Positions 35,980 through 56,169 of a DNA stretch of 64,000 bases are shown here, in pieces. The stretch is taken from positions 1-64,000 of the forward strand of contig JAHHHL010000005.1 of the NCBI GenBank assembly GCA_019359375.1. Direction: 5' to 3'. The translations under genes were made by a program, and so were the position numbers. Positions within the stretch are counted from its first letter, which is position 1; each line of letters opens with the position of its first letter. The stretch comes from Lyngbya sp. HA4199-MV5 (lineage in GTDB: Bacteria; Cyanobacteriota; Cyanobacteriia; Leptolyngbyales; Leptolyngbyaceae). The notes beneath the pieces are model-generated. The model saw only the letters and a program-made list of their open reading frames with translations, was not told where the DNA came from and ran no database searches.

Positions 35980-36210
35980 ATGCACAGACCAAAGCAGCAT
36001 GGCTGGTTGCTGAGAGTTGCTAGCAACGTGCTCATGACCTTTCTGCTCAGTCTCTTTGGGTTACTTGTCGCGCTTCTGCTGGCAGGTATCGTGGAAAGCT
36101 TGCCACTCATCAATCTGTTGCTGAATCTACTGGAACAGTGTTTGCCGAAAGCCATCGCTCTGGTGCTCTGCATCGTCGGTGTGGCGGTGGTGCTGGAATC
36201 CATGCGGTAG
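35980..36210 (+). CDS. Small membrane protein, 76 aa
   Basis: Begins at ATG 35980 after GGAGGA. Two hydrophobic segments (FLLSLFGLLVALLLAGIV and IALVLCIVGVAVVLES) are joined by a leucine-rich loop. It is the likely partner of the NfeD-like gene just upstream. No family name. A longer reading from 35935 overlaps the upstream gene and is not needed. Confidence 0.6.
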   Translation: MHRPKQHGWLLRVASNVLMTFLLSLFGLLVALLLAGIVESLPLINLLLNLLEQCLPKAIALVLCIVGVAVVLESMR

Positions 36211-36284
36211 CCGTTAAGCAGTCGTTCAGAAGGTATCTCGGAATGAGAATCGCTCTCAGTCCTGCACTGTTTGCAAGAGAGCAT

Positions 36285-36659
36285 TCATCTGAGCGGTAGT
36301 GCTTGTGTTTTCAGTGTAGTCAGGCTGGCTAACTTGAGATCGTTCGTCAACAAGAGTGCATTGAGAGACTGAGCTGTGGCTGCAATCATCGCATCCGGCA
36401 ATTTCAGGCGGTGCTGTTTACGAAGAGCGATCGCTATACTTTTAATCGATTCATCAATGCCAATGATCAGCAGTTGAGCTAAGAAGTTGCGGATCGTTTG
36501 CTCTTCGGCTTGGCTAAGATTGGGGTACGAAAGCAGTTCCATTTCAGTGATGATGGAAACATGGTAGGAACCACTAGGTAGAGGAGCTGTTAAGCGTCCA
36601 CCGAGGTAATAGAGGGCAATGTTGGCATCAAGCACAATGAGGGGTTGGTTTACGACCAT
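36285..36659 (-). CDS. PIN-domain toxin (VapC-like)
   Basis: 124 aa. PIN ribonuclease fold with the acidic residues in place: VLDANIALYYL (first Asp), ITEMELLSYP (Glu), LKLPDAMIAATA (Asp) and LLTNDLKLA (Asp). Such toxins cut RNA, often tRNA, when released from their antitoxin. It overlaps the upstream antitoxin gene by ten bases, the usual toxin-antitoxin arrangement. It is the last gene of a five-gene minus-strand run. Confidence 0.85.
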   Translation of the reverse strand: MVVNQPLIVLDANIALYYLGGRLTAPLPSGSYHVSIITEMELLSYPNLSQAEEQTIRNFLAQLLIIGIDESIKSIAIALRKQHRLKLPDAMIAATAQSLNALLLTNDLKLASLTTLKTQALPLR

Positions 36660-36865
36660 TCATCTCGGATTTGCTGTTGATAGTCCAGAGGATCGACGGT
36701 GAGTTGAATTACCCCTGCATACGCAGCTAATGCTGGTGTTATATCTTGTTGTTGATGGGTTGCCAGAATTTGTTCAATCGCCTGCCAATCTTCATAATCA
36801 ATCAGAACCGCAACCGGACGCATCGATTCATCAGTAACAATTTGCTTTTTAATCGGTTTCATCAT
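36650..36865 (-). CDS. Antitoxin of the PIN toxin (Phd/YefM-like)
   Basis: 71 aa. The N-terminus KKQIVTDESMRPVAVLIDYE followed by DWQAIEQIL is like Phd/YefM-type antitoxins. The acidic C-terminal third (DPLDYQQQIRDEWS) is the likely toxin-binding tail. Start is ATG 36865 or 36862. It ends inside the toxin gene and begins 27 bases after higA. Confidence 0.8.
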   Translation of the reverse strand: MMKPIKKQIVTDESMRPVAVLIDYEDWQAIEQILATHQQQDITPALAAYAGVIQLTVDPLDYQQQIRDEWS

Positions 36866-36892
36866 TGATTCCTGAGTTGAGCTTCACATTAA

Positions 36893-37297
36893 TCAGGCAA
36901 ACGAATCAGGGGATAGATGGAAGAAGGATGCTAGTGCCTGAGTCTGATGTTCTGTCAGTTGGCTTTTATGATTCAAAACGTCCAAAACAACAGACTCACT
37001 GCCAAAAATAGAGACTAAAGCATCGGGTTGAAGATTGGACTCTTCCATCAAGGCTTTGAGCAACTCGATGCCTTTCAGCATGGGCATTGGCTCATATTGT
37101 TCTTCGTAGTCATAAACCAGCATTCCCAGTACTTTCAGGTAATCACGATCGTCCTGAGTGAGCTGACTTCGATCTAAAATCAAATGAATTTGAGCCTGGG
37201 TTGCATTGAACTCAGCATCATTTGTGATGGGACGCGGTGGAAATGTATTAATCAGTGTCATATAGTAACTGCTAGGAGTTTTCAAACCAGTCGTCAT
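36893..37297 (-). CDS. higA: HigA-like antitoxin
   Basis: About 134 aa. The N-terminal half is acidic and helical (LTQDDRDYLKVLGMLVYDYE). The C-terminal half is an HTH (LLKALMEESNLQPDALVSIF, then VVLDVLNHKSQLTEHQTQAL) that should bind the operon promoter. It follows and overlaps higB, the toxin-first order typical of hig modules. ATG 37297 has AGGAG upstream; ATG 37261 (MTLINTFPPRP) would remove the overlap and is equally plausible. Confidence 0.85.
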   Translation of the reverse strand: MTTGLKTPSSYYMTLINTFPPRPITNDAEFNATQAQIHLILDRSQLTQDDRDYLKVLGMLVYDYEEQYEPMPMLKGIELLKALMEESNLQPDALVSIFGSESVVLDVLNHKSQLTEHQTQALASFFHLSPDSFA

Positions 37298-37580
37298 TTT
37301 TCCACTTCTCCTTGTCGTATTCTGCATGAGTTAGAACAGCACGGATAAATATAAGTTGATAGGCATAGTCAATATATGTGATTAAGCGAAAGTTGTTGCC
37401 ACTGATGTTGAAAACCGTGAGATTGCCTACCAAGTCTGCTGAAGGAAAAACCTGTCGAAGCTCGTTGAATGTTTGAAACCTCCCTTCTGTAATTCGTTGA
37501 TACCAGAGTAGTAATCCAGTTTGAGCAGTGGCTTGTAGCTCCCAAAATTCTCTCAGTGCTTTTCGACTAATGACACGCAT
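37272..37580 (-). CDS. higB: HigB-family toxin
   Basis: 102 aa, basic N-terminus (MRVISRKALREFWE). The family block SADLVGNLTVFNISGNNFRL is followed by FIRAVLTHAEYDKEKW, the signature of the HigB_toxin group of ribosome-dependent mRNA interferases. Its first 14 bases overlap the end of the STAND ATPase gene, so translation of the two may be coupled. Confidence 0.88.
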   Translation of the reverse strand: MRVISRKALREFWELQATAQTGLLLWYQRITEGRFQTFNELRQVFPSADLVGNLTVFNISGNNFRLITYIDYAYQLIFIRAVLTHAEYDKEKWKNDDWFENS

Positions 37581-39924
37581 TCATCCTCCCTTTTTTATTT
37601 TGCATTGACTGCCTCACTCTCTCCACCTGCTTTGGTGCTTTCATTTCACTAAACAATCGAATTGCCTCTTGAAAACTTTCATTACTCTTGTCAATTTGTT
37701 TGATTGTCAAATATGTTGATCCAAACTCATAATAAGCATCAGCCAGGCTGCATTTAGCACCTATTTGCTTCAATATGCTAATTGATTGTCCATGATTAAA
37801 TAATGCTTCTTGGAAATTATTTTGTTCTCTATAAAGGACTGCCAAACCACTTAAAGCTCTAGCTTTGATTAAAATATGTCCGTATTCCTTGTCGAAAAGA
37901 ATAGCTTTGCAATACATTTTATATGCTTTTTCAAAGTCTCCTAAATTTTTATAGGTTAATCCCAATAGAACTGCAACTTCTCCTTTATGCCAACCAGCTA
38001 AACCTGTTCGATCAAGCGCACCATTAGTTAAGCTGGCATATTCAAAAGCCTCTTCCATTAATCCTAAATATGAACTAGTTAACGCTATCCCATGCAACTC
38101 TTCAGATTCATGCTCAAATAAGCCTAGCTCACAAGCTTTCTTTTCTTCAAGAAGTGTTAAAATTTGCTTGAATAGGCTCATTGCTTCTTCTAGCTCCCAC
38201 AGGTCAATTTTACAAAGCCCAATATGATGCAAAGATCTTGTAATGAGTCGCCTGAGTTTAAATTTTATTGTTTCCAGACTTTCATCGACAGATAAATTGA
38301 AAGCAGTTTGAGCAACTTCCGACGATTTTACATAACACTCGATAGCTTTGTGTGTCTGCCCCAAAAACTGAAATGAAAGACCCAAAAGATTTAAGCACTT
38401 TCCTAGTGAATAGCTGGGTTTAAGATGGACTAATATTCTATTTATTGCAATATTGACTTGTTGGTGGAGACCTAATCTATAAAAAGAATTTCCAAGATGT
38501 TCACCTTCTCTCCATTGATTGAGTCTTGCTTTCACGATCACTTCAGCGCACATTTCGAAATCATTGATATTTAGGTAATGGTAATACGACTCAAAAGCTC
38601 TAAAAGCTTCCTCTAGCGTTCTGACCATATCTATCAATACAGTCCAAAAACTTGCTGTTTTTCGATTGGTTACTTCCCAATCCTCACTTGCTCTTAGTCG
38701 AGTAATCGCCTCCGTCCTTATCACTGGATGCAACCAAAATTCTCTATCTTCACAATCAGCGAGGGAACGATCCTGTAAAGCTTTAATCACACGCTTCTGG
38801 CGATTCTCTGGTATGTCCCACAACAGGCAAAACAGTCCTTCGATCGGCACCGTTGGCACATCTTGATAGCGATAACAGCCCATGCGGTAGAGTAACTTGT
38901 AAGCGTCTGGATCAAGTTCTTGCAAACGATCGAACTGTTTTGTGACTAAATCTTCCAGATCTCGTTCAATAAATAAATCGTCCTGGTTTGCTTGCCAGTA
39001 GGCTTCAACATTACCTGAGAAATCTTCCAGAACCGCGCCACTGATGATATCCATTGCTTTGGCATTACCACCATAGGCATCGTGCAAAGTAGCCAAAGAA
39101 GGGATATCCGTATTGATACTACGGCTCTGGAAAAACTGTTCCCAGGCTTGAACATCCAAACTTCTGAGCGAATAATGCTGTACCGTCACATCCGCTTCTC
39201 GCAGGCGTTCACGGCTGGTGATCAAGGTAATTGACTGCACAGTTAGATCACTTAGCACTCGCAGCAATTCTACATAACGACGATGCGCTTCAATGAATTT
39301 GCCTGCCGAATCTAACGCAGGTTCCAGGTTGTCAATCAAAATCCCTATGCGTTCCGTTTGCAGTTTGCGCTTGAGCCGATCGAGCGATACCAAAAATTCT
39401 CGTCCGGGTTCTTCACCCAGTTGCCGCAGCTTTTCTTCCAGTAGTCCCTCGATCGACGCAATGTCCTTCGTCTCCTTCGCAATCGGAAACTCCAGAAAAG
39501 AGCCAAACTCCTGCTGGAGATACTTCCGTGCCAGTGTGGTTTTCCCAACACCACCCCGTGCCTGCATCACAATCACTCTGGCATTGCGGCTAACCAGCGT
39601 GTCTAAGTCGGCGATCGCCTCATCCCGTCCCACAAAATTCGGGTCAGCCGTTGTAGTGGCTTGGGCTGCTGGAATGTGATCGCTCTCCGCCAACGTCAAC
39701 CCAAAAGTTTCAAAGCAACGGGCGATCGTCCGTTTATCAGAGCCTTTGCAATCCAGGACGTTCTTCACCGTCTCTGGGTCAAGTCCAGTCAGCTCTCCCA
39801 GTCGCTCCAACGTATATTTGAAGCCTGCATTCTCCTCCACCTCGTGCGATCGCACCTGTTCCCGGAGCTTTTGCAGACCTTCCGGTGTGAGTACACGCGC
39901 GCGGCTACGTTTGGGAGCGTTCAT
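37567..39924 (-). CDS. STAND-type NTPase (NB-ARC-like) with HTH-like N-terminus and TPR repeats
   Basis: About 785 aa. Residues ~10-90 (numbered from 39951) are a helical, HTH-like domain (LTPEGLQKLREQV, YTLERLGELTGLDPETVKNV). The NTPase core has Walker A QARGGVGKTTLARKYL, Walker B IGILIDNLEP, and LITSRERLRE. After a winged-helix-like region (residues ~340-430), ~350 residues form TPR repeats (LLGLSFQFLGQTHKAIECY, LGLTYKNLGDFEKAYKMY). STAND proteins sense a ligand or protein and oligomerise; many bacterial ones act in defence. No effector domain is fused here. ATG 39924 gives MNAPKRSRARV; TTG 39951 is the alternative. It overlaps higB by 14 bases. Confidence 0.85.
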   Translation of the reverse strand: MNAPKRSRARVLTPEGLQKLREQVRSHEVEENAGFKYTLERLGELTGLDPETVKNVLDCKGSDKRTIARCFETFGLTLAESDHIPAAQATTTADPNFVGRDEAIADLDTLVSRNARVIVMQARGGVGKTTLARKYLQQEFGSFLEFPIAKETKDIASIEGLLEEKLRQLGEEPGREFLVSLDRLKRKLQTERIGILIDNLEPALDSAGKFIEAHRRYVELLRVLSDLTVQSITLITSRERLREADVTVQHYSLRSLDVQAWEQFFQSRSINTDIPSLATLHDAYGGNAKAMDIISGAVLEDFSGNVEAYWQANQDDLFIERDLEDLVTKQFDRLQELDPDAYKLLYRMGCYRYQDVPTVPIEGLFCLLWDIPENRQKRVIKALQDRSLADCEDREFWLHPVIRTEAITRLRASEDWEVTNRKTASFWTVLIDMVRTLEEAFRAFESYYHYLNINDFEMCAEVIVKARLNQWREGEHLGNSFYRLGLHQQVNIAINRILVHLKPSYSLGKCLNLLGLSFQFLGQTHKAIECYVKSSEVAQTAFNLSVDESLETIKFKLRRLITRSLHHIGLCKIDLWELEEAMSLFKQILTLLEEKKACELGLFEHESEELHGIALTSSYLGLMEEAFEYASLTNGALDRTGLAGWHKGEVAVLLGLTYKNLGDFEKAYKMYCKAILFDKEYGHILIKARALSGLAVLYREQNNFQEALFNHGQSISILKQIGAKCSLADAYYEFGSTYLTIKQIDKSNESFQEAIRLFSEMKAPKQVERVRQSMQNKKGRMNACH

Positions 39925-39999
39925 ACATCTCGGCTGAATTGACTTTAGCAAGGCTCTACAACGTCCTACTGTGCCTCGGCAGCATCAACGCCAAAAACA

Positions 40000-40323
40000 T
40001 CAACGCCAAAGTTTATTTTCCAAATCTCTGAGTTGTCGCTCCAAGCGATCAATGCGACCGCGCAACTCATCTACTTCTGATTGTCGAGGGACACCAACAT
40101 CTTGCATGATGTTACGGATTTGCCGTTGTACCTGTGTCTCAAAATTACCTTGTTCAGATTTCAGCGTTTGCATTAGATCGTCAACCACATCTTTCGCTTG
40201 TTCTGGGTCGAGCTTGCCATCTTTAACAAGTTGATCACCAACTTCTTTGAGCTTGTCTGCTACTAATGATGTAGTACCAACACCAAGCATCAATAGCTGC
40301 GAAAGCCAATTATTGTTATCCAT
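40000..40323 (-). CDS. Phasin-family-like coiled-coil protein, 107 aa
   Basis: A short hydrophobic start (WLSQLLMLGVGTTSLVA) is followed by a long amphipathic helix (LKEVGDQLVKDGKLDPEQAK) and a C-terminal coiled coil (VDELRGRIDRLERQLRDLEN). This pattern is that of small cyanobacterial proteins annotated as phasin family, which can coat polyhydroxyalkanoate granules. No other PHA gene is nearby, so the granule role is unproven. ATG 40323 is clear. Confidence 0.75.
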   Translation of the reverse strand: MDNNNWLSQLLMLGVGTTSLVADKLKEVGDQLVKDGKLDPEQAKDVVDDLMQTLKSEQGNFETQVQRQIRNIMQDVGVPRQSEVDELRGRIDRLERQLRDLENKLWR

Positions 40324-40566
40324 GTTGTTATCCTATTGATGATCTTTTTACGTGCAAATAAGACCGTCTCTAAATCTCTAGCCTTGGATTGTTGCATTTA
40401 AAGGAAGTACGATCGCTCAGCCGCACGAGTTATGGCGGGTTTCCAAACAAGTTGGGCTAGAAGTGTTAATTGAAACCTCCATCTTTGCATGCTGATAGAC
40501 TTCATACTGATAGACTTGCTGCTTTCTTGTGTTGTTGTGTTGCTGTTACACTGTAGATACAGCTTA

Positions 40567-40696
40567 CTAGGGCGTGTCATCAATTAGCTCCGAAACCTTG
40601 CAATATCAGCAGTGTCACGCCCGTCCCAACACACCAGGCTAGGGGCTGGAATCTCTACTGCAAGAAATGTGTAGAGTAATTGATGACAGCCCCTAG
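40567..40696 (+). mobile_element. MITE copy D (130 bp)
   Basis: CTAGGGCGTGTCATCAATTA at the left and GTAATTGATGACAGCCCCTAG at the right (trimmed to 20 bases: TAATTGATGACAGCCCCTAG). The interior matches copy C. It ends 55 bases upstream of the gene at 40752. Bases 40324-40566 contain no gene I can support, only AT-rich direct repeats (GATAGACTTCATACTGATAG). Confidence 0.92.
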
Positions 40697-40751
40697 CACT
40701 CGAAGCTTTAATTTGCTGCTTCTTTGTCTTCATTACCTCCATTTTAGTGCT

Positions 40752-41075
40752 ATGGTCATCGAATGGTTAAAAATTCAAGTTGTTCCAGAATTGCGCGAAA
40801 AATACATCCAAAAAGATGAAGAAATTTGGACTACAGCTCTATCCAAGTATCCCGGCTATCTAGGGAAGCAGGTTTGGATTGATCCCAACAACCTGGATAA
40901 GGTTGTTCTAGTGAGTTATTGGGCAAGTCGTGAAGCCTGGAAAACCGTTCCCGCGAAAGATTTAGAAGCGATCGAAGCAAGATTTGCCCAGCAGATGGGA
41001 AAAGATACTTACAAAATAGTCGAAGAAGGTGAGTATCAAGTACGGAAATTTCCTCAAGGTCAACCTAAATCCTAA
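40752..41075 (+). CDS. TIGR03792-like antibiotic-monooxygenase-fold protein, 107 aa
   Basis: Starts MVIEWLKIQVVPELREKYIQ and continues DEEIWTTALSKYPGYLGKQV, the pattern of a small cyanobacterial family with a dimeric alpha-beta barrel (ABM-like) fold. VVLVSYWASREAWKTVP is the second half of the fold. The function is unknown; related folds degrade haem or oxidise quinones. A frame start at 40680 lies inside the MITE and is rejected. Confidence 0.75.
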   Translation: MVIEWLKIQVVPELREKYIQKDEEIWTTALSKYPGYLGKQVWIDPNNLDKVVLVSYWASREAWKTVPAKDLEAIEARFAQQMGKDTYKIVEEGEYQVRKFPQGQPKS

Positions 41076-41622
41076 AATCAATCTTTAGACAGTCTGGAAA
41101 GCTGTCAGGCGTTGCCTCTCTGAATGAGGTCTTATGCTAACCCTACGTTGATCCTGAAGTAGCGTATTTTACGCTAACAAGACAAAACCGATCTTAGTAG
41201 AGCATTCTCATCAAAGCATTCTTATCAAAGTATATGTGCTAGACAGGCAGCGCTTTGAGGGGATTGCTTTGGCAAAGTTGGTCAGGCATTTAAAGCCCTT
41301 CCCAAAGGTCTCTGTCAGGTTTTGCGCTCATTTGCACTCATGAATTACATCTCAACTCAGACGTGATCCTAGCGATAACTCATAGCGAGGCTGCACCGGA
41401 ATCAAGCTTCACCATACAAAACCCAGTCTACAAATATAATCCTGCACAGCTTCCAAAAATAATTAGAACCGCTAACACAGAGACTGCTAAACGGATCACT
41501 TAACCCACCAGTCCGCGACGTAAATCTAGCCACCCCTCCGTAGCGCAGTAGCCTTAACTGCAAGCAGGCAAGATGCCTGCCCTACGGTTGCCAGACTTCC
41601 ACCTTATTGTACGAAGGAGCAC
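41076..41622. other. Spacer with palindromic fragments, no gene
   Basis: About 550 bases without a supportable gene on either strand. A CCGTAGCGCAGTAGCC...GCCTGCCCTACGG element (41536-41586) is an imperfect hairpin and includes GCAGGCAAGATGCCTGCC. The remainder shows no clear promoter, RNA or repeat. Confidence 0.5.
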
Positions 41623-41718
41623 GAATTTAATAAGGTGTAATTCTTTCCGTAGGGATGTTATATGTAACGTCCCTACAGACGAGAAGTGATTCAAGTTAAT
41701 TAATCCACGATCCTAAGC
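41623..41718. repeat. 96-bp palindromic repeat, copy 1
   Basis: Runs from GAATTTAATAAGGTGTAATT to TTAATTAATCCACGATCCTA. The centre GTAGGGATGTTATATGTAAC followed by GTCCCTAC is an imperfect form of the 28-bp palindrome seen in copy 2 at 46615. The two copies are otherwise nearly identical over 96 bases. Confidence 0.9.
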
Positions 41719-41788
41719 TCATGTCGTGCAACTGGCAACGAGAGCCGAATAACATGATGCCTGTAAAACCTTGAATTGTGGCTATCCT

Positions 41789-42082
41789 CTAATAGGAGCT
41801 GTTGGAGAAGCTTTTGCCACCGCCTGTGCCACGGCTATCTTCCCTCGGCTTTGCTTTGTTAACTTTAAGCTCTCGACCCAGCCACTCTGCGCCATCAAGC
41901 TCAGAAATGGCTAAGTCTTCTTTGGATTCATCCTTCATCTCAATGAAAGCAAATCCTCGCTTTCTGCCCGTCTCACGATCTGTAGGAAGGCTAATTCGAC
42001 TGACTTCGCCGTATTCTGCAAATACTTCGCGCAGGTCGTCTTCAGTAGCCTGGAAGGACAGGTTACCCACGTAAATAGTCAC
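41789..42082 (-). CDS. RRM-type RNA-binding protein (Rbp family)
   Basis: One RRM domain: RNP2 TIYVGNLSF and RNP1 KRGFAFIEM, with ALTERNATING-charge helices between (TEDDLREVFAEYGEVSRISL). The C-terminus is short and Gly/Ser-rich (GTGGGKSFSNSSY), as in the cyanobacterial Rbp proteins related to plant glycine-rich RNA-binding proteins. Some are cold-induced or help localise thylakoid-protein mRNAs. I chose GTG 42082 (GTG ACT ATT TAC) with GGAGAG upstream, because family members start at this point; the frame runs on to 42118. Confidence 0.88.
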   Translation of the reverse strand: MTIYVGNLSFQATEDDLREVFAEYGEVSRISLPTDRETGRKRGFAFIEMKDESKEDLAISELDGAEWLGRELKVNKAKPREDSRGTGGGKSFSNSSY

Positions 42083-50114: not shown

Positions 50115-51167
50115 GTGGATTCGCAGGTGATGATGCAACCTGATCAACGACTAGCAATTTTGCTGCATGAGGGGGTGCAAGGCGTACAGGGCAAAACAGG
50201 GCTGACGATGCTGCGGTACAGCGAAGCTGCGATCGTCGCAGTGATCGATCGCGCTACCGCTGGTGCGTCGATTCCTGAGCTAACGGGTATTCCGCGCGAT
50301 GTCCCGATCGTGGCATCGGTGGCGGACGCACTCACGCACAAACCTGATGTGCTGGTCATTGGTATTGCCCTGCTGGGAGGCGTTCTGCCCAAAGATTGGC
50401 GGCAAGATATCCAACAGGCGATCGCCGCTGGACTGTCGATTGTCAATGGCTTACACACCCCCTTAAACCGTGATCCAACGCTTCAAGCGCTGCTCAAACC
50501 AGGACAATGGATCTGGGATGTGCGGCAAGAACCTCCCGCTTTAGGCGTGGGTACGGGACAGGCTCGTTCACTGTCCTGTTTGCGGGTGCTGACGGTTGGT
50601 ACCGATATGAGCGTGGGTAAAATGTCTACAAGTTTGGAACTTCACCGTGCCTCTGTGAAACAAGGGCTGCGATCGCGCTTTCTCGCATCCGGGCAGGCAG
50701 GTATGATGATTTCGGGCAGCGGCATTCCATTGGATGCGATTCGGGTCGATTTTGCGGCAGGCGCAGTGGAACAACTGGTGATGCAGGCAGGCAGCGATCG
50801 CGATATTCTGCACATTGAGGGGCAGGGTTCCTTGCTCCATCCCGCTTCGACGGCTACGTTACCCTTGCTCCGAGGCAGTCAGCCCACCCATCTGGTGCTG
50901 GTGCATCGCGCTGGACAAACTCATATTCGTAACGCTCCCCATGTGCAGATTCCACCCTTGCCTGACGTGATACAGCTTTACGAAACAGTTGCCGCTGCTG
51001 CTGGAGCCTTTGCGTCGGTGCAGGTTGCCGCGATCGCACTAAACACAGGACACCTCTCTGCGTCTGAAGCACAGCAGGCGATCGAGCAGGTTCAGCAGAA
51101 AACCCAGTTGCCCTGTACCGATCCTGTGCGGTTGAGTGCAAAGCCGTTACTCGATGCCATCGTATAG
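50115..51167 (+). CDS. DUF1611 (DgcN-like) P-loop protein
   Basis: 350 aa. The N-terminal domain has a Rossmann look (RLAILLHEGVQGVQGKTGLT, VLVIGIALLGGVLPKDW). The C-terminal domain has a P-loop GTDMSVGKMSTSLELH and IEGQGSLLHPASTATLPLLR. In some bacteria a DUF1611 protein (DgcN) works with an enolase-superfamily epimerase (DgcA) in D-glutamate breakdown. A DgcA-like enolase-family gene is 10.6 kb away at 61803. GTG 50115 is the longest start; ATG 50130 is an alternative. Exact reaction here is unproven. Confidence 0.8.
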   Translation: MDSQVMMQPDQRLAILLHEGVQGVQGKTGLTMLRYSEAAIVAVIDRATAGASIPELTGIPRDVPIVASVADALTHKPDVLVIGIALLGGVLPKDWRQDIQQAIAAGLSIVNGLHTPLNRDPTLQALLKPGQWIWDVRQEPPALGVGTGQARSLSCLRVLTVGTDMSVGKMSTSLELHRASVKQGLRSRFLASGQAGMMISGSGIPLDAIRVDFAAGAVEQLVMQAGSDRDILHIEGQGSLLHPASTATLPLLRGSQPTHLVLVHRAGQTHIRNAPHVQIPPLPDVIQLYETVAAAAGAFASVQVAAIALNTGHLSASEAQQAIEQVQQKTQLPCTDPVRLSAKPLLDAIV

Positions 51168-51257: not shown

Positions 51258-51617
51258 GTGATTCGATCGCACCACTTCTCAGCCATCTTGACCATCTCGG
51301 ACGCGATCGCCAACAGCACCACTGACGACCTGCTGGAGTTGCTGAAGGGTTGTGTTCGGGCGGCGGACTTAACCGCTGTGGCAGACGCTACGGCTACGTT
51401 TTCGCCTCAAGGTGCGTCGGCTGTGCTGCTGTTAGAAGAGTCTCATGTGGCGCTGCATGTCTGGTCTGAGTGTCGCCAAGCAACGGTGGATATTCATGTG
51501 TGTGATTATCATCAGGATAATCGTCTCAAGGCTGAAGTGCTGGCAGAGCAGTTGGCGATCGCGCTTTCGGGCAGCAGCGATCGCGTTCACTGGCACGCAT
51601 TAGAGGTGATGGGATAA
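51258..51617 (+). CDS. speH: S-adenosylmethionine decarboxylase proenzyme
   Basis: 119 aa. AdoMetDC supplies the aminopropyl donor for polyamine synthesis and makes its pyruvoyl cofactor by self-cleavage. The cleavage site is E61-S62 in LLLEESHVALHVW; H67 and C82 (VDIHVC) match the catalytic histidine and cysteine of the small bacterial class. GTG 51258 is the start. It opens a run of DUF4178, SpeE-like, FemABX and DUF350 genes. Confidence 0.92.
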   Translation: MIRSHHFSAILTISDAIANSTTDDLLELLKGCVRAADLTAVADATATFSPQGASAVLLLEESHVALHVWSECRQATVDIHVCDYHQDNRLKAEVLAEQLAIALSGSSDRVHWHALEVMG

Positions 51618-51706
51618 GTAAAGTTTTGAGTGATGCGAGCTGAGTTTTGAGCGGAGGCATTTAAGTTAGAACTCAAGACTCTAGATTCTCCTTGAGACAG
51701 CATTCC

Positions 51707-52399
51707 ATGACAGCAGGGCTATCTGAAACCCAACTGCGGCATTTGCGAGAAGGCAGTCAGCTTAAGTACCACGGTGTTCAGTGGGTGATACAAGACTACA
51801 GCACCTATACAGATGACAACGGCTACGAAACCGAAGAGTGGCAGTTAAAGTCGAGTAGCGGCAAAGAATATTACTTGCTGCGCGAAGTCGATCCGCAAAA
51901 CCCAGAAACTCTGGTTCACTGGTATCTTGCTGAAGAACTGCGTTATCCCACTCTCCTTGACCCGCAAACGTCCCGCGATCGCCTCACGATGGTGGGAGAC
52001 GAGATGCGATCGCACGCCACTCCATACCCAGAACTCCAGCTCTTCAATCGCGTTTATGCCTTTGAATCGCAAACCGAGGGCGACTACGAATCAGACGGCA
52101 CCACTCGCCACCGCATCACCTGGGACTACTGGGATAGTGCCCATCTCTGGAACCTGGCGCTAGAAGCCTGGAGCGACGGCACCTTAGCGGTCTACTCTAC
52201 TCGCGTCGTGCAACCTGCGGACTTTACCGAAATTCAATCAAGCAATCGTGCCTCACTTGCTTCTGGACAAAGCTCTAGCGATTATGTGGCGACCATGCAA
52301 GCCTTTTACAACCAGAAACGCGATAGCCGCAGCCGTGAACTCGCGATCGCCTGGATTGTGACGATCATTGGCTTCTTTTTAATGATCTCTGGAATCTAA
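51707..52399 (+). CDS. DUF4178-domain protein with C-terminal membrane helix
   Basis: About 230 aa. The DUF4178 pattern is LREGSQLKYHGVQWVIQDYS, then WQLKSSSGKEYYLLREVDPQ and later ITWDYWDSAHLWNLALEAWS. A single hydrophobic segment closes the protein (IAWIVTIIGFFLMISGI), so the domain should face the cytoplasm from a tail anchor. Its function is unknown. DUF4178 genes are found beside AdoMetDC, SpeE-like and DUF350 genes, as here. ATG 51707 is preferred over TTG 51692. Confidence 0.85.
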   Translation: MTAGLSETQLRHLREGSQLKYHGVQWVIQDYSTYTDDNGYETEEWQLKSSSGKEYYLLREVDPQNPETLVHWYLAEELRYPTLLDPQTSRDRLTMVGDEMRSHATPYPELQLFNRVYAFESQTEGDYESDGTTRHRITWDYWDSAHLWNLALEAWSDGTLAVYSTRVVQPADFTEIQSSNRASLASGQSSSDYVATMQAFYNQKRDSRSRELAIAWIVTIIGFFLMISGI

Positions 52400-52404
52400 G
52401 GCCA

Positions 52405-52641
52405 AGTGAGGCGTGAGAGGGGAGTAGGGAGTGGGGAGTAGGGAGTAGGGAAGCAGAAAGAGTTGTTAGTTGTAAAGCTCTAAAGCCTTTCGGCAGATCA
52501 AACATGGGCATATCGGAAAGGTTGTTAGCGCCAGAACTACTCCTGACTCCTTCTAAAAACTAAAAACTAACAACCAAAAACTCCCTTGCCCCCTACCCCC
52601 TGCTCCTCTCTCCTCACCTCTCACCCCTCACCTCTTCTTCA
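52405..52641. repeat. Low-complexity dyad repeat between DUF4178 and SpeE-like genes
   Basis: Purine arm of GGGAGTA heptads (52419-52450), GAGTTGTTAGTTG, a unique centre, CTCCTTCTAAAAACTAAAAA and CTAACAACCAAAAACTCCC, then a CT-rich pyrimidine arm that runs right up to ATG 52642. Confidence 0.88.
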
Positions 52642-54105
52642 ATGACTTCTCTTTTCATCGAACATCACCCCAACGGTCTTGCCTTCTACATCAATGGCGA
52701 TTTGCAGTTTGATACGGCAGACGAAGCGATTTACCACGAATACTTGGTGGTGCCTGCGATCGCCCTGGCTGTTCAACGCTTCCCCAACACACCGTTGCGC
52801 GTCCTCATTTGCGGGGGGGGTGATGGGTTAGCCGCCCGTGATGTGCTTCGCTTTGACGCGGTGAGCGACGTAACCCTGGTGGACTATGATGCGGAGGTGT
52901 TAGAACTTGGTCGCACAGTCTTTGAACCCTACAATCAGGGCAGTTTGATCAGTGGATTGGAACCTGCGTCCGGGAAAAATCGCCTGACCGTTTATACCCA
53001 GGAAGCGTTTGAGTTTGTGGCAAACGTGCCCGATGCTTGCTACCACGCCGTCATTTGTGATTTCACCTTTCCGAGCCGATCGGAGGACACCCAAATCTAC
53101 AGCCGCGAGTGGTTTCAGCAGGTGCATCGCGTTCTTTGTCCTGGTGGCATCATGAGTACGAATGGTGTCTCGCCAGAACAGCGCACATTGGGCTTTTGGT
53201 GCCTCTACCAAACCTTACTCGCGGCTGCACTTCAAGCAAAACCTCTACAAGTTGCCATTCCTTCGTTTCGAGAACACGGCTATGGCGATTGGGGGTTCTT
53301 TATCGCGTCTGAGGTGCCCATGACGCGATCGGAGGTCGAAGCCGTCGACCTTCCCGCTAACCTGAGCGCCTTGCAGCCTTATCGCTGGCAGACGGTTTTT
53401 CAAATTCCCACCACGATCGCCCAGCATCGTGAGGTTCCAAAGGTTCATACGCTGGACAGTCCTCAGCTTTTTTATTACCTGTTGAATCCGCGATTGCAAT
53501 TAACCACGACACTGATCGACGATTCAGCCCCACAATTCATCGATTTCTTGGATGTTCAAGAAGAAGGTACGGGCGCGATCGGTACTCATGATTTACTGCA
53601 ATTAGACGCGATCGCAACTGCATGGCTCGATCAGTTACACCAAGCGAAAAAGTTCCCTCAAGCAGCTCAAAGTGCTGAGATGCTGCCCGTCCAGCATCGC
53701 TATCACAGCCCCCAAATGACCACAGAATGGCTTACTTATCTCAAAGCGTTGTTAGAAGAAGTCAACCTCAATCAGTTGTTAGCCAGCCTGCTAGAACGTG
53801 CTCAAGAATTACCTCCTCAACTTGCCCGTGAACTCAAGCAATTGACCGAAAAAATACGAACAGGACAACCCATCACTTACATTTCAGAACATACGGCTGA
53901 ACTAATCACCCTGCTTTCTGTCACCGTTCTCATGGCAAATGTCGCTACGCCAGATATTGTTTTTGCTAAAGGGTATTCCGGTTCTTCAAGAGGCTATTCT
54001 AGCAGTGGTAGCTCTGGTGATGAAAACTTTGGCTGGCTTGGCTTTTGGACAATGTTAATTGGGGGCATTTGGCTCTGGAATCTTTATAAGAATCCTGATG
54101 AATGA
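52642..54105 (+). CDS. Spermidine-synthase-like protein with C-terminal extension and membrane tail
   Basis: 487 aa. Residues 1-250 are the spermidine synthase fold: DEAIYHEYLVVPAIAL, RVLICGGGDGLAARDVLR and a CDFTFPS motif where family enzymes have DS(S/T)DP; the first Asp (catalytic) is kept and the second is Phe. Residues ~250-430 are helical and unfamiliar. Near the C-terminus are a hydrophobic segment (ITLLSVTVLMANVAT), a Ser/Gly-rich stretch (GYSGSSRGYSSSGSSGDEN) and a last membrane-like segment (LGFWTMLIGGIWLW). It probably transfers an aminopropyl group from decarboxylated AdoMet, to an acceptor that may not be putrescine. It follows speH and DUF4178. Confidence 0.82.
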   Translation: MTSLFIEHHPNGLAFYINGDLQFDTADEAIYHEYLVVPAIALAVQRFPNTPLRVLICGGGDGLAARDVLRFDAVSDVTLVDYDAEVLELGRTVFEPYNQGSLISGLEPASGKNRLTVYTQEAFEFVANVPDACYHAVICDFTFPSRSEDTQIYSREWFQQVHRVLCPGGIMSTNGVSPEQRTLGFWCLYQTLLAAALQAKPLQVAIPSFREHGYGDWGFFIASEVPMTRSEVEAVDLPANLSALQPYRWQTVFQIPTTIAQHREVPKVHTLDSPQLFYYLLNPRLQLTTTLIDDSAPQFIDFLDVQEEGTGAIGTHDLLQLDAIATAWLDQLHQAKKFPQAAQSAEMLPVQHRYHSPQMTTEWLTYLKALLEEVNLNQLLASLLERAQELPPQLARELKQLTEKIRTGQPITYISEHTAELITLLSVTVLMANVATPDIVFAKGYSGSSRGYSSSGSSGDENFGWLGFWTMLIGGIWLWNLYKNPDE

Positions 54106-54142
54106 AATAGCGATGTTAGAGAGGTTGACTTGAGTAACAGTG

Positions 54143-55192
54143 ATGCTGACTAAACCGTTGGAACCAGTCAAACTGCACGAAACATTAGAGATTCGCTTAC
54201 TCACGCTGAACGATTGTGCTCAGTGGGATGCCTTCCTGCAAGCTTCACCGACAGGATGCTTCATGCAAGCATGGGTGTGGGGAGAATTTAAACAACTAGA
54301 AGGATATCAAAGCTTTCGCTATGGTCTTTTTGCCGAGCATCTTCTAGTTGGTGTCTGCTGTTTCTATTACTATCCCTGCGAACACACTGCAAATTTACTG
54401 GTTGCTCCAGGCGCTCCCTGCTTTTTACCAGGATTTGAACAAGCAGGAATGTCACTACTTCTAGAACAGGCAAGAGCGCTGGCAAAAAACGTAGGCGCGA
54501 TCGCGCTGCGTCTTGAGCCATTGTGGTTAGAAAAACCGATATGTCTTAACGAATTTGTTCGTGCCCCAGTCGAGCTTTTACCATCAGAAACCCTCTTAAT
54601 CGATCTGCGCCCCCCGATCGCTAAAATGCTGGCTTCGATGAAACCTAAAGGACGGTATAACATTCGGCTGAGCCAGCGGCATGGCGTAACAACCCACTTT
54701 ACAACTGACTCTCAAGCCATTCCTGTGTTCTACAATCTGTTCTGGGAAACGGTGCAGCGACAACAGTTTTTCGGTGAGCCATACAGCTTCTTTATCAATT
54801 TTTGTCAGACACTTTTTGCTGCAAACATGGCAGAAATTGGCTGGGCAACCTGGCAGAACGAAGTCTTAGCAACTGTTCTTATGGTGTACTGGGGCGATCG
54901 CGCCACTTACCTCTATGGCGGACGTAGCGAGGCTTACCCGCATGTCATGGCAAGCTATGGACTTCACTGGGCAGCCATGCAGCGTGCGAAAGCAAAAGGA
55001 TGCAGCTTTTATGATTTTTACGGCTATACTCGCGACCCAAGCCATAACTACGCTAAATTCTCACAGTTCAAGCGCCAGTTTGGTGGCACACCCGTTACGA
55101 CAATCGGCGCTCACGATTACTTCTTTTACGACCAGCTAGCAGATACCTTAATTGGGTTGTTCAAACGATTGGGTAACGAACGTGAGAGATAA
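54143..55192 (+). CDS. FemABX-family aminoacyltransferase-like protein
   Basis: About 349 aa with two GNAT-like halves. Motifs: FMQAWVWGEFKQLEGYQSFR in the N-terminal half, MLASMKPKGRYNIRLSQRHG (typical Fem segment) at the join, and YLYGGRSEAYPHVMASYGLH with AKFSQFKRQFGGTP at the end. Fem proteins move amino acids from aminoacyl-tRNA to peptidoglycan precursors, and relatives modify other acceptors. Its place between the SpeE-like and DUF350 genes suggests a modification step in the same pathway. GTG 54140 or ATG 54143 start. Confidence 0.85.
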   Translation: MLTKPLEPVKLHETLEIRLLTLNDCAQWDAFLQASPTGCFMQAWVWGEFKQLEGYQSFRYGLFAEHLLVGVCCFYYYPCEHTANLLVAPGAPCFLPGFEQAGMSLLLEQARALAKNVGAIALRLEPLWLEKPICLNEFVRAPVELLPSETLLIDLRPPIAKMLASMKPKGRYNIRLSQRHGVTTHFTTDSQAIPVFYNLFWETVQRQQFFGEPYSFFINFCQTLFAANMAEIGWATWQNEVLATVLMVYWGDRATYLYGGRSEAYPHVMASYGLHWAAMQRAKAKGCSFYDFYGYTRDPSHNYAKFSQFKRQFGGTPVTTIGAHDYFFYDQLADTLIGLFKRLGNERER

Positions 55193-55199
55193 GTTTTAA

Positions 55200-55302
55200 G
55201 ACTTGAATTTTCTTCCGCTTTCGCTTCTTCTCCTGACTTCTGACTTCTGACTCCTAACGTCTGACTGCTTCTAACAACTAAAAACTAACAACCAACAACT
55301 AC
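55200..55302. repeat. Low-complexity repeat upstream of the DUF350 gene
   Basis: CTTCTGACTTCTGACTCC-type heptads (55232-55260) lead to CTTCTAACAACTAAAAACTA and ACAACCAACAACTAC ending at ATG 55303. Only the pyrimidine half of the family is present here. Confidence 0.85.
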
Positions 55303-56169
55303 ATGAATCCTTTCTTTCTCAACGGCATGACCCGCATTGGGCTAGTAATCACTGAGCTAGCCGTTGGCTTTGGTATCTTCTGGTTGGGGCAGTTGGCGTA
55401 TCAAAAGCTGTTTCGACGGATGGATCTAAATCTGGAGTTGTTTGTACGGGATAATCCGGCAGTGGCGATCGCGCTATTGGGCTATAACTTCGGCATCATC
55501 CTTGCCCTGGCAGGTGTGTTGGCTAAAGAGAGCGCTACGTGGCTTGACCATTTAATCTCCCTGGCAAGCTACGGTGCAGGCGTGATTCTGCTGATGCTGG
55601 CAGGTGCGTGGGTGGGCGATCACTGGATTCTTAAACGCTGTGACTGTGCTCGTGAAGTGGTCGAAGAGCAAAACGTGGGAGCCGCTGCCGCTGAAGCTGG
55701 TGTGCATATTGCCAGTGGCTTGATTTTGAGTGCTGCCCTTGGTGGTCAGAGTGGCACCTGGCTTGTCGGGTTAGTGTGCTGGTGCGTCGGCTTGAGCGTT
55801 TTGGTGCTGGTAAGCGCCCTCTATCCTCGCGTGACTCGATACAACGTGTTTAGAGAAATCTGCAAGCGCAATAACCCCGCAGCGGGTGTGGCTCTGGCTG
55901 GGTTGCTGATCGCGACGGGCAATACTGTGCGGGTAGCGTTTGCGCCAGACTTTCAAAACTGGGCTGAGAGTTTCACCCAATACCTTGTGGTGCTGGGTTT
56001 TTGCCTACTTGCTCTGGCGTTGATTCGCTGGTTTGCGGATCTGGTACTGGTGCCAGGGGTGAAGATTTCAGACGAGATTGTCAATCAAGCCACCCCCAAT
56101 TTGGCAGCAGGATTGATCGAGGCATTTGCCTATATCGCAGGGTCATTTCTGCTTGCCTGGAGCGTTTGA
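55303..56169 (+). CDS. DUF350 (YjfL-family) membrane protein, double domain
   Basis: 288 aa, about eight membrane helices. Two DUF350 units, each with the conserved block: ELFVRDNPAVAIALLGYNFG in the first and EICKRNNPAAGVALAGLLIA in the second. DUF350 proteins are inner-membrane proteins of unknown function. Here the gene closes the speH-DUF4178-SpeE-like-Fem run on the same strand. Start is fixed by ATG 55303 right after the repeat. Confidence 0.88.
   Translation: MNPFFLNGMTRIGLVITELAVGFGIFWLGQLAYQKLFRRMDLNLELFVRDNPAVAIALLGYNFGIILALAGVLAKESATWLDHLISLASYGAGVILLMLAGAWVGDHWILKRCDCAREVVEEQNVGAAAAEAGVHIASGLILSAALGGQSGTWLVGLVCWCVGLSVLVLVSALYPRVTRYNVFREICKRNNPAAGVALAGLLIATGNTVRVAFAPDFQNWAESFTQYLVVLGFCLLALALIRWFADLVLVPGVKISDEIVNQATPNLAAGLIEAFAYIAGSFLLAWSV

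Follow-up and report, generated by a model that had tools for sequence, protein, structure and literature searches.

Which molecule does a SpeE-like enzyme modify when its gene lies between those of a DUF4178 protein and a FemABX transferase? This question is raised by positions 51258-56169 of a 64,000-nucleotide stretch of DNA from the cyanobacterium Lyngbya sp. HA4199-MV5 (positions 1 to 64,000 of contig JAHHHL010000005.1, forward strand, assembly GCA_019359375.1), the whole of which is called the window below. A preliminary description of the sequence had placed five plus-strand genes there; the five open reading frames (ORFs) are in place and each matches its named Pfam family above the cut-off. 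They encode SpeD, a class 1b-like S-adenosylmethionine (AdoMet) decarboxylase homolog of 119 residues (51258..51617; AdoMet_dc, 62.6 bits); a DUF4178 protein with a C-terminal membrane anchor (51692..52399, with a possible ATG start at 51707; 45.3 bits); a SpeE-like protein with an aminopropyltransferase fold, an altered acceptor pocket and a C-terminal membrane tail (52642..54105; Spermine_synth, 78.2 bits against a cut-off of 22.9); a FemABX-family transferase of 350 residues, the size of FemX (54140..55192; FemAB, 104.4 bits against a cut-off of 24); and a tandem DUF350 polytopic membrane protein (55303..56169; 144.6 bits), the Pfam match of which falls in two stretches. Hydrophobic segments are present in the DUF4178 protein (residues 217-235), in the tail of the SpeE-like protein (residues 422-440) and in the DUF350 protein (six), in agreement with the earlier view that three of the five products look membrane-bound. 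We find that these genes form a real, co-inherited membrane module, and propose, with a probability of about 45%, that this module carries out a two-step aminopropyl and aminoacyl conjugation at the membrane.

The recurrence of the gene set was checked in 30 window-family rows, comprising the window, 23 named cyanobacterial loci and 6 further genomes (48-63% identity to the window SpeE-like protein); two of the rows, L036 and L060, belong to one genome, so 29 are distinct. The set recurs throughout: DUF4178, SpeE and Fem stand together and in this order in 30/30 rows (in L072 and L074 the contig begins within the DUF4178 gene), DUF350 comes after Fem in 23, and SpeD is found near the cassette in 19, lying upstream and codirectional in 7 rows and downstream in convergent orientation in 12. 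Many of the cassette genes overlap or lie only a few bases apart, which makes their co-transcription likely. Named strains that carry the cassette belong to Nostoc, Calothrix, Leptolyngbya, Anabaena and Pseudanabaena, and the nearest named relatives are from Leptolyngbya and Stenomitos. In a sample of 292 genomes of the phylum, the same 9 genomes hold a window-type SpeE (E < 1e-50) and a window-type Fem (E < 1e-60), with Fem adjoining SpeE in each of them; weak Fem matches only were obtained in one further genome and as some second copies. A chance neighbourhood is rejected by the adjacency in all rows together with this identical presence, and the Fem gene, which had been singled out as the least expected part of the set, is a fixed member of a conserved membrane-linked module and not a bystander. 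A Fisher test gives p = 2.7e-17, but it ignores shared ancestry and is not relied on. Because the genomes of the two deep relatives, L042 and L043, are contaminated at 7 and 9%, these rows serve as supporting evidence only; the Fem of L042 was found by tblastn and genome search and stands outside the Fem alignment described below.

The SpeE-like protein has a Spermine_synth match in common with all 31 rows of its alignment. Among NCBIfam models it scores best against PRK03612, which is 522 positions long and which we take to be the membrane-fused form, but the score of 192 of 472 bits is below the cut-off and the match covers only the C-terminal half of the model (residues 10-280 against model positions 264-514). 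The spermidine synthase equivalog model TIGR00417 is likewise missed, with 73.1 of 249.55 bits. The structural model (predicted local distance difference test, pLDDT, 78.5 overall; of the first 28 blocks of ten residues, 26 score 82-98) finds solved aminopropyltransferases at the top of a Foldseek search, with a best E value of 7.6e-18 and PDB codes 1uir, 6qmm and 1jq3 within the top ten.

The active site was compared over the 29 distinct window-family members, the 2 deep relatives, 12 seven-transmembrane (7TM) SpeE forms and 10 canonical cyanobacterial SpeEs; the canonical set is 10 of 12 regions fetched (L106 was left out and L110 gave no ORF), and L060 was dropped as the duplicate of L036. 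In known aminopropyltransferases the donor-site residue of the GGGDG motif is Asp or Glu, and in spermidine synthase Asp176 and Gln206 (human numbering) presumably hold putrescine. Human Tyr79, Asp104 and Asp173 have unchanged equivalents in 29/29 window-family members. At the place of Asp176, however, Tyr (20 members), Phe (5), Cys (3) or Ser (1) is found, with Trp and Leu in the deep rows, while Gln206 is replaced by Asn and Tyr241 by Phe in all 29 members, both positions being changed in the two deep rows too. The claim of an altered SpeE active site thus holds, residue 143 of the protein being never Asp and residue 174 always Asn in the family rows. All three of Asp176, Gln206 and Tyr241 are kept in the canonical cyanobacterial SpeEs (10/10), and Asp176 and Gln206 are kept in the 7TM forms (12/12). 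Asp173 is the catalytic base, and the attacking amine is held by Tyr79 and Tyr241 (PMC12812037). Read most simply, these replacements leave the donor side and the chemistry intact and point to an acceptor other than a diamine, for which no distal amine would have to be bound. As far as the sequence can tell, the suggestion that the locus serves something other than ordinary spermidine synthesis is borne out.

The membrane attachment of the SpeE-like protein is also distinct. In its tail, a membrane helix ending in a N...PDxVFAKG motif is followed by a loop rich in Gly and Ser and then by another helix that is less certain; in the structural model the helices span residues 416-435 and, with low confidence, 464-483. 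The N, P, D, K and G of the motif are kept in 30/30 window-family rows and in both deep rows. By hydropathy, no hydrophobic segment precedes the SpeE domain in any of the 30 rows, whereas 5 to 7 such segments precede it in each of the 12 7TM forms. In the tree the canonical SpeEs are split from all others with a support of 100/100, which leaves the window family, itself a single clade (100/98), on the same side as the 7TM forms. The family may have arisen inside the 7TM group or beside it, the 7TM forms being one side of a branch with a support of 82/77 in one tree, which includes L106, and not in the other. In L042 (7761-10883) and L043 (5592-8234) the tail extends for several hundred more residues after the same membrane motif, and no Pfam match was obtained in this extension. 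In the window SpeE-like protein, residues 430-460, after the membrane helix, are rich in Gly, Ser and Tyr and resemble small membrane or lipoprotein-like ORFs located beside 7TM-SpeE genes (L046, 10105-10347; L112, 4840-4986), of which this stretch may be a fused form.

The Fem protein was compared with Weissella FemX, in which Lys36, Arg211 and Tyr215 are important for substrate binding, Tyr254 probably contacts the tRNA, and catalysis requires Phe304 and Lys305 (PMC4964394). In an alignment of 31 rows, the residue at the Tyr254 place (Tyr257 of the window protein) is Tyr in 31/31, that at the Lys36 place is Lys in 26 and Arg in 5, and that at the Tyr215 place is Phe in 29 and Tyr in 2. Glu occupies the Arg211 place in every row, on which pairwise and 15-row profile alignments agree, and the lipid II:glycine glycyltransferase 6snr also has Arg opposite this Glu. 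Phe310-Lys311 is kept in 31/31 rows and aligned with Phe373-Lys374 of 6snr, through which it would correspond to Phe304-Lys305 of FemX. As in the SpeE-like protein, residues on the donor and catalytic side seem to be conserved and those on the acceptor side altered, and a Glu at the Arg211 place would probably be a better match for an amine-bearing acceptor than for a diphosphate. A Fem relative was seen on a Methylobacterium plasmid (L111, 7944-8975), where it follows a peptidase-domain ABC transporter and a HlyD-type adaptor, as in peptide export loci.

We infer a pathway from these computed features, including its acceptor, donors, order of steps and topology. The aminopropyl donor, probably decarboxylated AdoMet, would come from SpeD. 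Anchored on the cytoplasmic face by its C-terminal tail, the SpeE-like enzyme would pass the aminopropyl group to an acceptor other than a diamine. FemABX would then add an amino acid from an aminoacyl-tRNA, its putative donor, to the new amine or to the same target. The DUF4178 protein, a tail-anchored beta protein, and the polytopic DUF350 protein may provide a membrane scaffold or a passage for the product. The narrower proposal, that both groups end up in sequence on a single molecule, such that a membrane component is aminopropylated and its new amine is aminoacylated from tRNA by FemABX, is more doubtful, although a cationic acceptor would agree with the invariant Glu of Fem, found at a position that is Arg in wall-precursor enzymes. 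The DUF4178 model is of good quality (pLDDT 88.7) and has a long helix at residues 191-228, numbered from the Met at 51707; no solved-structure match was found for it by fold (best Foldseek E 6.7e-3, TM-score about 0.2), and weak Foldseek matches to elongation factor P were not used.

Several results weigh against this pathway, the strongest of them against decarboxylated AdoMet as an obligatory donor. The pyruvoyl Ser, the His and the Cys required for self-processing and catalysis are kept in 19/19 cassette SpeDs, the window's included. One Pro, which we take to be that of the HTWPE motif, is fully conserved in proven AdoMet decarboxylases and not in their arginine-decarboxylating relatives (PMC10407285); this position is Pro in 11 of the 19, Thr in 6 and Ser in 2, so that 8, among them the window SpeD with Ser, are without the typical residue. 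In addition, no AdoMet_dc match was found in a 99% complete genome that carries the cassette (G193). The supply of decarboxylated AdoMet by SpeD, as it was first suggested, is thus plausible but uncertain on these two grounds. Further, 11/30 rows have no SpeD in the DNA covered, some of them on short contigs, and DUF350 does not adjoin Fem in 7/30 (L059, L072-L076 and L078); in six of these seven, all but L076, the next plus-strand gene has no DUF350 match by Pfam. In L070 and L071 DUF350 is short or split: a half-length gene in Cuspidothrix (L070, 12501-12944) and one distributed over two overlapping ORFs in Anabaena UHCC 0204 (L071, 12519-13095) look as if they were decaying. The change of Tyr241 to Phe is not special to the window family, since Phe is found in 12/12 7TM forms as well. 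Hydropathy gives two hydrophobic segments in the SpeE tail in 21/30 rows, one in 7, including the window, and none in 2 (L036/L060), and a tail hairpin is therefore not certain everywhere. The Phe-Lys pair of Fem is mapped through 6snr only, because the FemX alignments end at residue 299. Finally, a PF01916 gene of the deoxyhypusine/homospermidine synthase type, present in the own genome and in 8/8 other cassette genomes, speaks for the pathway as a possible alternative source of polyamines, but it is also present in 4/6 control genomes that lack the cassette and is not a marker of it.

Copy number invites a simpler explanation, by which the SpeE-like protein is the cell's ordinary synthase of spermidine or a related polyamine, located at the membrane and only loosely linked with Fem, DUF4178 and DUF350. 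The own genome (6.9 Mb, 95 contigs, completeness 100) has one DUF4178 gene, one FemAB gene, one DUF350 gene besides a match below the cut-off, and a single Spermine_synth gene, that of the cassette; the two findings that by the preliminary description would have spoken against its proposal, a failure of the gene set to recur and another canonical speE in the genome, were thus both absent. Each of seven class-level genomes of the window type (7/7) gave exactly one SpeE match (E up to 0.001, with only the best first-look candidates scored), so no canonical SpeE was seen in those either, and the donor site and the catalytic Asp are kept. An ordinary synthase is nevertheless improbable, as 29/29 distinct members lack the amine-pocket residues (the second Asp, the Gln and the Tyr) that 10/10 canonical SpeEs keep, and Fem follows SpeE in every row. 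A carboxynorspermidine route was also considered and rejected, the own-genome nspC match being far below the cut-off (35 of 409 bits). Should the donor be AdoMet itself or another compound, the SpeE-like enzyme would transfer a methyl or an aminocarboxypropyl group, and SpeD would be a separate, possibly re-purposed decarboxylase. The cassette of G193, the Pro missing from 8/19 SpeDs by the distinction made in PMC10407285, and the overlap of SpeD with an upstream DUF1611 gene in 3/30 rows all speak for such a donor. However, two residues found in aminopropyltransferases, the GGGDG Asp and the catalytic Asp, are kept in 29/29 distinct members, and in all 19 rows with a SpeD (of 30) its gene stays less than 800 bases from a cassette gene despite rearrangement, for which reasons we hold this alternative to be quite unlikely.

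A third alternative is an envelope-stress module comparable to the PspA-linked ones, in which polyamine-type chemistry tunes or reports the state of the membrane and Fem separately alters peptidoglycan or an exopolysaccharide. Sister 7TM-SpeE loci of the phylum carry PspA and DUF4178 (L044) or CesT/Tir (L046), a Novosphingobium plasmid combines a band-7 protein, two DUF4178 proteins, DUF350, 7TM-SpeE, an amine oxidase and SpeD, and the FemX-like HfsK has been reported, on indirect evidence, to modify the holdfast polysaccharide (PMC5362036). Queried with PspA from L044, CesT from L046, and band-7 and amine oxidase from the plasmid (L112), the 456 ORFs of at least 80 residues in the window-family rows yielded no relative (phmmer, E up to 0.01, for PspA, CesT and band-7). 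Moreover, the Glu found in 31/31 rows in place of the acceptor Arg of FemX argues against the usual wall precursor. This explanation is accordingly unlikely, and a coupled aminopropyl and aminoacyl conjugation remains our preferred reading.

Upstream of SpeD, the window has a plus-strand gene for a DUF1611 (DgcN-like) protein (50115..51167), which is accessory. A DUF1611 gene precedes speD in 5/30 loci and overlaps it by 4 bases in 3 (among the window, L056, L058 and L059), from which it follows that this SpeD may also serve DUF1611 chemistry. SpeD as a partner of DUF1611 instead of the cassette was set aside, the overlap being confined to these 3 of 30 loci; no DUF1611 match was found in the DNA covered for the 12 rows with a convergent SpeD. 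Among the other ORF clusters of the window family, c5 (6 rows), c7 and DUF1611 (5 rows each) are the commonest. Besides the one AdoMet_dc gene above the cut-off, the own genome has a weak match on contig C15, a second short SpeD-like ORF of about 120 residues (..LIDSGISAYIW..; L080, 1423-1785), which also occurs in G060 (L096, from 1417). It scores 22.5 of 25 bits in the own genome, below the cut-off, and 25.4, just above it, in G060, and is without the usual ESHxxxH motif. In G185 a cassette-type SpeD with a different C-terminal end (L095, 1426-1722) has no cassette genes in the 3.2 kb covered, the genome has no SpeE, Fem or DUF350 match, and this SpeD looks like a remnant. In Pseudanabaena frigida (L073, 12559-13458), and at this single locus, Fem is followed by an LD-carboxypeptidase (peptidase S66), a wall enzyme. 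Positions 36001-42000 of the window have a GC content of 0.43-0.46, against about 0.52 elsewhere, and are possibly an acquired stretch.

Li et al. (2019, Biochem J 476:2579) reportedly described clusters of an AdoMet decarboxylase, a spermidine synthase fused to a major facilitator superfamily (MFS) domain and DUF350, with no spermidine, and the MFS-fused enzyme, which is related to the SpeE-like protein, reportedly does not replace SpeE in E. coli, a further argument against an ordinary synthase. The cassette resembles these clusters in having an AdoMet decarboxylase homolog by a non-canonical spermidine synthase and DUF350, reportedly with the proposal that no spermidine is made; it differs by the lack of an MFS fusion, by Fem and DUF4178 as fixed partners and by an atypical SpeD.

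The preliminary description had considered the pathway as undescribed, which does not stand: its core is in print as an operon of PspA, CesT/Tir, 7TM-SpeE, DUF350, a lipoprotein and DUF4178 (PMC11237479). The same paper also describes a second one with a GspS-like ATP-grasp ligase and DUF350, variants of which have an AdoMet decarboxylase and a polyamine oxidase, and suggests polyamine sensing or aminopropylation of other substrates for such operons. Loci of this kind exist in the same phylum, with PspA, DUF4178, DUF350 and 7TM-SpeE in L044 and PspA, CesT/Tir, DUF350, 7TM-SpeE and SpeD in L046. The cassette shares with the published operon a SpeE-like domain, DUF350 (23/30) and DUF4178 (30/30) at the membrane. 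In contrast to that operon, as described there, its SpeE has a C-terminal membrane tail and no N-terminal membrane domain, PspA and CesT are missing and FemABX is added; unlike the 7TM forms, its SpeE has lost the second Asp and the Gln of the acceptor pocket. On the plasmid of Novosphingobium sp. ES2-1 the run of DUF4178 (two copies), DUF350, SpeE-like protein and SpeD is the same, whereas the SpeE is a 7TM form with 7 hydrophobic segments, accompanied by a band-7 protein and, as partner enzyme, a flavin amine oxidase (PF01593); the 12.7 kb examined contained no Fem. Among plasmid records, 27 had a SpeE match and 24 a Fem match; one of each was inspected, and SpeE and Fem were not both present in the stretch seen of either.

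The cassette Fem is of the same family and size as Weissella FemX (PDB codes: 1ne9, 4ii9), has Tyr at the Tyr254 place and shares Phe-Lys with 6snr; it differs from both in having Glu for Arg and in its fixed SpeE-like context. It is comparable to the GspS-like ATP-grasp enzyme of the DUF350 clusters (PMC11237479) as a candidate amide-forming enzyme beside polyamine-type genes and DUF350, although the ligase has an unrelated fold and the cassette enzyme would be tRNA-dependent. From these operons and loci it appears that the core is widespread and the partner enzyme varies, being an ATP-grasp ligase, an amine oxidase or, in cyanobacteria, FemABX. The core of SpeD, SpeE-like protein, DUF350 and DUF4178 is already known; what appears to be new is the FemABX-bearing, tail-anchored variant. 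A literature search found no paper on the pairing of a SpeE-like protein with FemABX, but subscription papers were mostly outside its coverage, so that its absence from print is unproven. The variant narrows the question of what the "polyamine-independent" SpeE-like enzymes beside DUF350 act on, by means of a single-copy, co-inherited cassette in which the pocket is devoid of the residues that bind a diamine and the constant partner probably forms amides. Once the product is identified, DUF350 and DUF4178 could probably be assigned a role as well. If our proposal is true, the cassette catalyzes a previously undescribed modification of the envelope, and FemABX is the tRNA-dependent counterpart of the ATP-grasp and oxidase enzymes that accompany DUF350 elsewhere.

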